DNA from: Christiangramia sp. OXR-203
Lineage (GTDB): Bacteria; Bacteroidota; Bacteroidia; Flavobacteriales; Flavobacteriaceae
NCBI RefSeq assembly: GCF_034372165.1
Contig: NZ_CP139698.1
Location: forward strand, 2,914,001 to 2,978,000
Length of the DNA stretch: 64,000 nt
Direction: 5' to 3'
Shown: positions 58,105 to 59,770 of the stretch, piece by piece
Layout: each line of letters opens with the position of its first letter
How positions within the stretch are numbered: position 1 is the first letter of the stretch
Notes under the pieces: model-generated
Seen by the model: the letters and a program-made list of their open reading frames with translations, nothing else
Database searches by the model: none
Told to the model about the DNA's origin: nothing
Position numbers and translations under genes: made by a program

Positions 58105-58647
58105 TCATTGGAGTGTGGGATTAAATGGCGCAAAAACTCCATCGGGATTTTCCAGTCCCACCCAGGCGTGTAGCGTCCACCCTCCAGCGGCGCAATTGAG
58201 ATGCCAGTGATCATCTTCCCCGATGAAAGGTCCCTCGGGTATTGTATAATCTTCAGTTTGATCGCAGTTAGGAACCGGGATCAAATACTCTGCAGCTACG
58301 AATTGCATTTTCCCGTTTTCATCTGGATGATATACCAGAATTTCAGGTTTTAGCAAATCGAACTTCATATCTACATATTCTTCTTTGGCATAATGATAGC
58401 CCATACCAGGTACAAGCGGACTCACCTGTACATAACCCTGATCCACAGCCACATTAAAATTGTGAAACCTTCGCATCGCTTTGGCAAGCATTTCCAGCTG
58501 ATCATCCAAAGTCTCAGCCTTCTCAACCTTGAAATCATAGGACTGTAAGTTCTCATTTTCAAATGGATCTGAACTACAGGAACTAATTAGTGCTAATAAT
58601 AGAACTGGCAAAACCAGAAATGGTTTCGTAAATAAATTCGTTTTCAT
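58105..58647 (-). CDS. Conserved lipoprotein of unknown function (cupin neighbour)
   Basis: 180 residues with a lipoprotein signal ending LISSC (lipidated Cys about position 24). The mature part has recurring conserved short motifs: AMRRFHNFNVAVDQGYV, VPGMGYHYAKEEYVD, KPEILVYHPDENGK, AAEYLIPVPNC, and a C-terminal HLNCAAGGWTLHAWVGLENPDGVFAPFNP. The many histidines and the GMGYHY pattern suggest a metal-bound or ligand-binding fold, but I know no function. It follows the cupin gene by 22 nt under the same TetR-type control, so it probably works in the same response. Confidence 0.6.
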   Translation of the reverse strand: MKTNLFTKPFLVLPVLLLALISSCSSDPFENENLQSYDFKVEKAETLDDQLEMLAKAMRRFHNFNVAVDQGYVQVSPLVPGMGYHYAKEEYVDMKFDLLKPEILVYHPDENGKMQFVAAEYLIPVPNCDQTEDYTIPEGPFIGEDDHWHLNCAAGGWTLHAWVGLENPDGVFAPFNPTLQ

Positions 58648-58669: not shown

Positions 58670-59107
58670 CTATTCCATTTGAATGATCATATCATAATCG
58701 CCCGCAGTATTTAATACCTCCTGAATAATTTCTGGAGCAACCGACTTTTCCATAGCATTTTCCTCACTGGTGGGTATCCCGTATTTTCGAAAGAATTCTG
58801 CGAATCTTTTAGGACTGTGAATATTTACCCATTTACAGTTTTCGCTCTTGGAGTTCACGAAAGTGTGCAGCGTTTTTGGGGGAATGTCTATTGATTCCCC
58901 CGCTTTCACATTTCTCTGCTCGCCATTGATGATGAAATCCATCTCCCCCGTTACGATATAAAAAGACTCATGTAAATTTTCATGATAATGTGGTGGTGGA
59001 CCAGGTACCTGGCTAAGGGATTCGCCAATAATAAGATCGTAGTCACCCGAAAGATTCTGCACTGAAACTTTGCGACCTAACACCCATGATTCTAATTCGT
59101 TACGCAT
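58670..59107 (-). CDS. Cupin domain protein
   Basis: 145 residues of a small single-cupin fold. Metal-site motif 1 is PPPHYHENLHESFYIVTGEMDF (two His plus Glu) and motif 2 is IPPKTLHTFVNS (third His), so the site looks complete. Possible roles are a dioxygenase, isomerase or binding protein; no substrate is indicated. First gene of a minus-strand unit with the lipoprotein, divergent from a tetR gene whose operators cover both promoters. Confidence 0.85.
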   Translation of the reverse strand: MRNELESWVLGRKVSVQNLSGDYDLIIGESLSQVPGPPPHYHENLHESFYIVTGEMDFIINGEQRNVKAGESIDIPPKTLHTFVNSKSENCKWVNIHSPKRFAEFFRKYGIPTSEENAMEKSVAPEIIQEVLNTAGDYDMIIQME

Positions 59108-59108
59108 C

Positions 59109-59130
59109 TTATGAGATTTTAGTCTCGTAA
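59109..59130. promoter_or_regulatory. Operator 1, palindrome between cupin and tetR
   Basis: TTATGAGA, 6-nt spacer (TTTTAG), TCTCGTAA: 7 of 8 positions symmetric. It begins 2 nt past the cupin ATG and overlaps its -7 box (59128-59135), so a bound dimer would block transcription of the cupin gene. Confidence 0.7.
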
Positions 59131-59158
59131 ATATATAACGGAATTTTGTAGAATCAAA
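59128..59158 (-). promoter_or_regulatory. Promoter of the cupin-lipoprotein unit
   Basis: Minus strand: TTTG (59155-59158), exactly 19 nt, TATATTTA (59128-59135). Strong match except the last base of the -7 box. Confidence 0.6.
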
Positions 59159-59175
59159 GTTTTATAAGATATTTG
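59145..59175 (+). promoter_or_regulatory. Promoter of tetR
   Basis: TTTG (59145-59148), exactly 19 nt, GATATTTG (59168-59175). The start would fall at or next to the ATG (59180), so the message is nearly leaderless. It overlaps the cupin promoter back to back. Confidence 0.5.
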
Positions 59176-59183
59176 TCTCATGA
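59162..59183. promoter_or_regulatory. Operator 2, palindrome at the tetR start
   Basis: TTATAAGA, 6-nt spacer (TATTTG), TCTCATGA: same arm and spacer lengths as operator 1, 6 of 8 symmetric. It covers the tetR -7 box and ATG, suggesting autorepression. Confidence 0.65.
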
Positions 59184-59770
59184 GTAAACAATATATCCAA
59201 AAAGGAAGAAAGACTCAGAAGCTGAAAACCCGGGACAAAATCCTTAGAAGCACACAAAAGTTGCTGGAAAAGAACCAGGACATAAGCCTTGAGGATGTTG
59301 CTAAGGAAGCAGGTATATCCAGGGCAACGATCTATCGTTACTACTCCAGTATCGATGTACTGGCTGCAGAAGCAGTACTGGACCTGAATACTAAAAGTTC
59401 GGAAGATCTCTATGATGAGGTTGCTGGGAAAGACCTGAAAGAAGCTATTCTATCCATGCAGAATTATTACAACCAGTTAACCATTGACAATGAATCTGGT
59501 TTTAGAAAATATATGAGTGTAGTCCTGAACAATGATCATAGTGATAAAATGCGTGGTGCACGCCGCAAAAAATCCTTACTGATGTTACTGGAGAATAAGG
59601 CTCAGCACATGAGTGCTCAGGACAAGGAAAATTTAGCGAATATTACCACAGTCTTGATGGGTATTGAAGCCTTCGTAGTCACCAAAGACGTATGCGGTTT
59701 AAACAATGTAGAATCTAAAAATCTATTGAACTGGGGAATGGAAAAATTGCTGGAATCAATATTAAAGTAA
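59180..59770 (+). CDS. TetR/AcrR family transcriptional regulator
   Basis: 196 residues: N-terminal TetR helix-turn-helix (about 18-65: RDKILRSTQKLLEKNQDISLEDVAKEAGISRATIYRYYSSIDVLAAEAV) and a helical ligand-binding C-terminus (about 75-196). The ligand is unknown. The gene is divergent from the cupin gene with twin palindromic operators between them and convergent to the P450 gene (2-nt gap), so it is well placed to control its neighbours. The HTH is intact. Confidence 0.92.
   Translation: MSKQYIQKGRKTQKLKTRDKILRSTQKLLEKNQDISLEDVAKEAGISRATIYRYYSSIDVLAAEAVLDLNTKSSEDLYDEVAGKDLKEAILSMQNYYNQLTIDNESGFRKYMSVVLNNDHSDKMRGARRKKSLLMLLENKAQHMSAQDKENLANITTVLMGIEAFVVTKDVCGLNNVESKNLLNWGMEKLLESILK

Follow-up and report, generated by a model that had tools for sequence, protein, structure and literature searches.

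Paired palindromic operators in a divergent cupin/tetR region conserved in Flavobacteriaceae point to a local, autoregulated switch

In Tn10, the genes tetR and tetA are divergent, and the operators tetO1 and tetO2 are located in their shared control region. A TetR-type repressor with a cupin partner is known from Bacillus subtilis, where the flavonoid-responsive QdoR (YxaF) controls itself and the cupin dioxygenase QdoI (YxaG), which destroys the inducer; two operators are located at qdoI and one at qdoR (PMC8481877). The probable switch described here belongs with the TetR-autoregulated divergent pairs, and thus to a familiar kind; its paired sites are real and well conserved.

The locus was identified in the 3.4-Mb single-contig genome of Christiangramia sp. 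OXR-203, within a window of 64 kb (the whole stretch of DNA that was analysed). The cupin gene (58670-59107, minus strand; ATG 59107-59105) codes for a single-domain protein of 145 amino acids (Pfam Cupin_2, E 4.5e-15), which is a predicted metal-binding enzyme. The divergent gene tetR (59180-59770, plus strand; ATG 59180-59182) codes for a repressor of 196 amino acids, which is placed in the TetR family by its N-terminal TetR-type helix-turn-helix (HTH) domain (PF00440 TetR_N, E 1.3e-7; 31.7 bits vs a cut-off of 24) and by palindromic putative operators in its own control region. A cytochrome P450 gene (59773-61107, minus strand) is oriented tail-to-tail with tetR at a distance of 2 bp. On the other side, 22 bp downstream of the cupin gene, lies a gene for a putative lipoprotein of 180 amino acids (58105-58647, minus strand), which matched no Pfam or NCBIfam family. 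The lipoprotein has a His/Trp-rich stretch (DHWHLNCAAGGWTLHAW) close to its end. Apart from a single near relative, the matches in a TetR scan of genome contigs were distant or partial; the closest named relative of the locus belongs to an uncultured Christiangramia, with a TetR that is 91% identical.

As in Tn10, a TetR-family gene and its target point away from each other, a pair of similar palindromic operators in the shared intergenic region overlaps both promoters, and autoregulation is expected. Unlike in Tn10, the target is a cupin and not an efflux pump, the operator sequence is unrelated, the operators are further apart (53 bp), the predicted promoters are of the Bacteroidota type, and a start codon is located inside an operator. 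With QdoR/QdoI the locus shares the combination of a TetR-type repressor and a cupin. QdoI is also the closest solved relative of the cupin (E 2.5e-14), the best stretch of which aligns with residues 215-307 of the 338-aa QdoI chain. However, QdoI has two cupin domains and 337 amino acids, and the protein studied here, with 145 amino acids and one cupin domain, is not a QdoI-type bicupin (about 337 aa). The operators also lie in a shared divergent region, whereas those of QdoR do not. The 3-His/1-Glu metal site of the cupin, distributed over two cupin motifs (H40, H42, E47 and H81), was present in at least 97% of 37 homologs. If the analogy with QdoI holds, the compound that TetR senses may be broken down by the cupin, the substrate of which need not be a flavonoid.

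Two imperfect 22-bp palindromes were found in the intergenic region. The first, op1 (59109-59130; TTATGAGATTTTAGTCTCGTAA, family form TTATGAGATTTTTGTCTCACAA), reads TTATGAGA-TTTTAG-TCTCGTAA with seven of eight arm pairs complementary; the second, op2 (59162-59183; TTATAAGATATTTGTCTCATGA, family form TTATRAGAYATTTGTCTYATGA), reads TTATAAGA-TATTTG-TCTCATGA with six of eight. The sequence-only reading had described palindromes with 8-nt arms and a 6-nt spacer at both -7 boxes, 53 bp apart. This was borne out when the sequence was read directly: both sites are present, if with incomplete symmetry, and their starts are separated by 53 bp, which leaves 31 bp between the operators. op1 overlaps the -7 box of the cupin promoter by 3 bp and also the expected cupin transcription start, while op2 holds the entire tetR -7 box together with the tetR start codon. 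In most loci the right arm of op1 is TCTCACAA as opposed to the symmetric TCTCATAA; OXR-203 has TCTCGTAA at this place, and its cupin box ends in TTTA. The deviating C of this arm would correspond, on the opposite strand, to the G in TTTG of the cupin -7 box, and the G in the right arm of op2 (TCTCATGA) would belong to the ATG of tetR, so that the asymmetry of each site can probably be explained by its second role. In one locus (L069), the tetR start codon is located 19 nt further downstream, and there op2 has the symmetric right arm TCTCATAA; in another (L169), tetR starts with GTG. For the A in position five of the op2 left arm (TTATAAGA) there is no such promoter or start-codon reason. An operator pair this similar within 150 bp occurred once in the window, which also contained 45 single palindromes with at least seven of eight pairs. 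Since 2 of 20 windows of 64 kb from a Markov simulation also contained such a pair, the evidence for an operator pair from the window by itself is weak; it is conservation that settles the observation.

The candidate promoters of the form TTTG-N19-box were located where the sequence-only reading had placed them. The predicted cupin core promoter (59128-59158, minus strand) consists of a -33 TTTG (59158-59155), N19 and the -7 box TATATTTA (59135-59128), with an expected +1 at about 59123. The predicted tetR core promoter (59145-59175, plus strand) consists of a -33 TTTG (59145-59148), N19 and the -7 box GATATTTG (59168-59175), with an expected +1 at 59180. The two had been regarded as back-to-back promoters reading outwards; they are indeed divergent but interleaved, and because the cores share positions 59145-59158, two polymerases could hardly occupy them together. 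Flavobacterial sigma-A promoters combine a TTTG further upstream with a -7 box; in Flavobacterium psychrophilum, this box has the consensus TAnnTTTG at -12 to -5, and 5.5% of the mapped mRNAs are leaderless (PMC9723704). Given this position of the box, transcription of tetR is predicted to start at the A of its own ATG (59180), inside op2, resulting in a leaderless mRNA. Conserved columns of the cupin promoter are 59128-59131, 59134-59135 and 59155-59158, and its -7 box, TATATTTA in this genome, is mostly TAnnTTTG in the family. Those of the tetR promoter are 59144-59147 and 59171-59175. As the tetR -7 box GATATTTG is without the first T of TAnnTTTG in every aligned locus and the -33 TTTG is retained in only about half of the loci, this promoter could be weak or placed elsewhere.

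Of 397 genomes of the family, 38 had a TetR homolog (E up to 1e-20), as did 9 of 24 genomes of the genus, which gives 46 genomes in all. The cupin gene was the divergent neighbour of tetR in 44 of these, and both operators were present in 45 of the 46 loci. The operator distance was 53 bp in 41 loci, 52 bp in two, 55 bp in one and 33 bp in one; the latter two values belong to the two loci that are without the cupin. Among 31 non-redundant loci, the operator columns were nearly fixed. Mean pairwise identity was 0.88 for op1 and 0.93 for op2, compared with 0.36 for the unconstrained spacer, against an expectation of 0.33 from base composition; the randomised spacer positions are 59136-59141 and 59149-59153. 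To control internally for insertions and deletions, the gap between the cupin and lipoprotein genes was used: it varied from 17 to 35 bp in the genus genomes, in which the operator spacing never changed. That a length of about five helical turns is kept over an otherwise randomised spacer supports the same-face placement of the two operators put forward earlier. Genome draws at the level of the phylum and of the order yielded no TetR homolog outside Flavobacteriaceae; absence of the cassette elsewhere is only suggested by this result, because both draws are rich in genomes of that family.

For site searches the 22-bp family consensus TTATRAGAYWTTTGTCTYRYRA was used. It replaced a looser arm-only pattern with 3 mismatches, which gave background in the host genome (245 matches vs 346 in the control). 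A site within 1 mismatch was present in 34 of the 38 family genomes with TetR and in 6 of the 359 others (p about 1e-38, a value that overstates the strength since related genomes are treated as independent). In the remaining four TetR genomes the sites at the locus are weaker, and the six genomes without TetR contain one lone 1-mismatch site each with neither TetR nor cupin nearby, which is about the level of the backward-pattern control. Within the genus, TetR, cupin and operators all occur in one and the same set of 9 genomes out of 24. When the motif was sought elsewhere in the host genome, only op1 and op2 were recovered and no third site within 3 mismatches of TTATRAGAYWTTTGTCTYRYRA. As the operators match nowhere else in the host and co-occur with TetR across the family, the regulon appears to be local within the reach of this consensus. 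In one other genome (G020, C1:2502422-2502443), a third site with 2 mismatches (ATATGAGATATTTGTCTCAGGA) was found away from the locus; it may represent a second target or chance.

Outside the genus, the neighbours of the cassette differ in almost every genome. Because the cupin gene is divergent from tetR in 44 of 46 genomes amid these unrelated neighbours, the unit is formed by cupin, tetR and their shared intergenic region. The lipoprotein gene follows the cupin gene in all nine cassette-bearing genus genomes and was not detected beside the cassette in other genera; it is probably part of the cupin operon in this genus only. In several cassette-free genus genomes queG directly adjoins the P450 gene, which marks the empty cassette site and shows that lipoprotein, cupin and tetR genes are gained or lost as a block in the genus. 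In two genus genomes that are without the cassette (L161 and L163), weaker lipoprotein homologs (40-41%) lie close to queG. The operators follow TetR and not the cupin, since two loci keep twin sites without it: in L164, TetR and the twin sites are retained and the cupin is absent, and in L171 a TetR with 34% identity (2232-2843) is accompanied by a pair of sites with the same consensus, separated by 33 bp, and by a divergent alpha/beta hydrolase gene (1302-2249). The repressor subfamily thus seems to have swapped partner enzymes in L171. In L071 (genome G251), all that is left of the intergenic region is a single operator bordered by the two start codons, and cupin and tetR are both kept; this locus represents a natural single-operator version of the switch. 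For plasmid-borne relatives from Proteobacteria (28-30% identity), no annotated cupin was found beside TetR in two annotated regions.

On the side of the protein, the HTH residues S47, R48, A49, T50, Y52, R53 and Y54 and the N-terminal residues G9, R10, Q13, K14, T17 and R18 of TetR were conserved in at least 97% of 38 homologs. A near-invariant recognition region is as expected if the operator is near-invariant too. There was no close solved relative of TetR (best E 2.5e-4), and structure models from two-sequence alignments (pLDDT 46 and 50) were too poor for fold searches.

The proposal that TetR represses both genes from the two palindromes gained comparative support, in that operators, tetR and cupin are present or absent together; it is further backed by the near-invariance of both the recognition region of TetR and the cores of the operators and by the coverage of both promoters by the operators. 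Judged from these sequence comparisons, a local, autoregulated switch in which TetR binds op1 and op2 and represses cupin and tetR is very likely, and it would very probably turn only these two genes on and off. TetR dimers would bind op1 and op2 and block RNA polymerase at both promoters, because the cores interleave and the operators cover the -7 boxes and expected starts. The cupin gene, and in this genus the downstream lipoprotein gene, would thereby be turned off, and TetR would limit its own synthesis. TetR would be released by a small ligand, for which the cupin's substrate or a related compound is the most likely candidate; the cupin would then be made and remove the ligand, whereupon repression would return.

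The fixed 53 bp could originate from interleaved promoters or from an interaction of dimers, which are variants of this explanation and not competitors. That the spacing only preserves the interleaved promoters, with competing polymerases, either operator blocking both promoters and dimers binding independently, comes close to an even call: one polymerase would exclude the other on the overlapping cores, and the -33 columns of both promoters are partly conserved. However, each promoter needs its own internal spacing only, and such an arrangement would tolerate a range of distances and not nearly always 53 bp. This near-constancy over a randomised spacer (53 bp in 41 of 46 loci and 52 bp in two), the variable gap nearby in the same genus and the deviation of both loci without cupin would fit dimers that interact on the same face, by cooperative binding or a short bridge, and thereby fix the spacing. 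We consider this conceivable on a tentative basis, as promoter overlap, or the reach of each operator into the -33 region of the other promoter, could hold the spacing instead, 31 bp between the operators is long for direct contact, and L071 keeps both genes with one operator. It is somewhat doubtful that the locus represents, in all respects, an undescribed two-gene cassette of Flavobacteriaceae in which phased operators switch interleaved promoters as one unit, the leaderless tetR mRNA starts inside an operator, and one 22-bp element is operator, -7 box, transcription start and start codon; the literature searches yielded no description of this cassette. It is very improbable that the palindromes serve another regulator while TetR controls something else, because among 397 genomes the sites co-occur with this TetR, persist beside it where the cupin is absent and are found nowhere else in the host genome. 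An origin of the palindromes by chance in AT-rich intergenic sequence, for which the single palindromes of the window and the simulated pairs could be cited, is refuted by near-complete conservation in 46 genomes of many genera with randomised DNA in between.

To our knowledge, few repressor-operator pairs are known in Flavobacteriaceae. The cupin/tetR locus offers a complete and apparently strictly local regulon of one repressor, two operators and one enzyme, with a well-defined operator, and is a good candidate for an inducible promoter in this family. It also provides a direct route to the substrate of an uncharacterised cupin, through a search for the compound that causes the repressor to let go.
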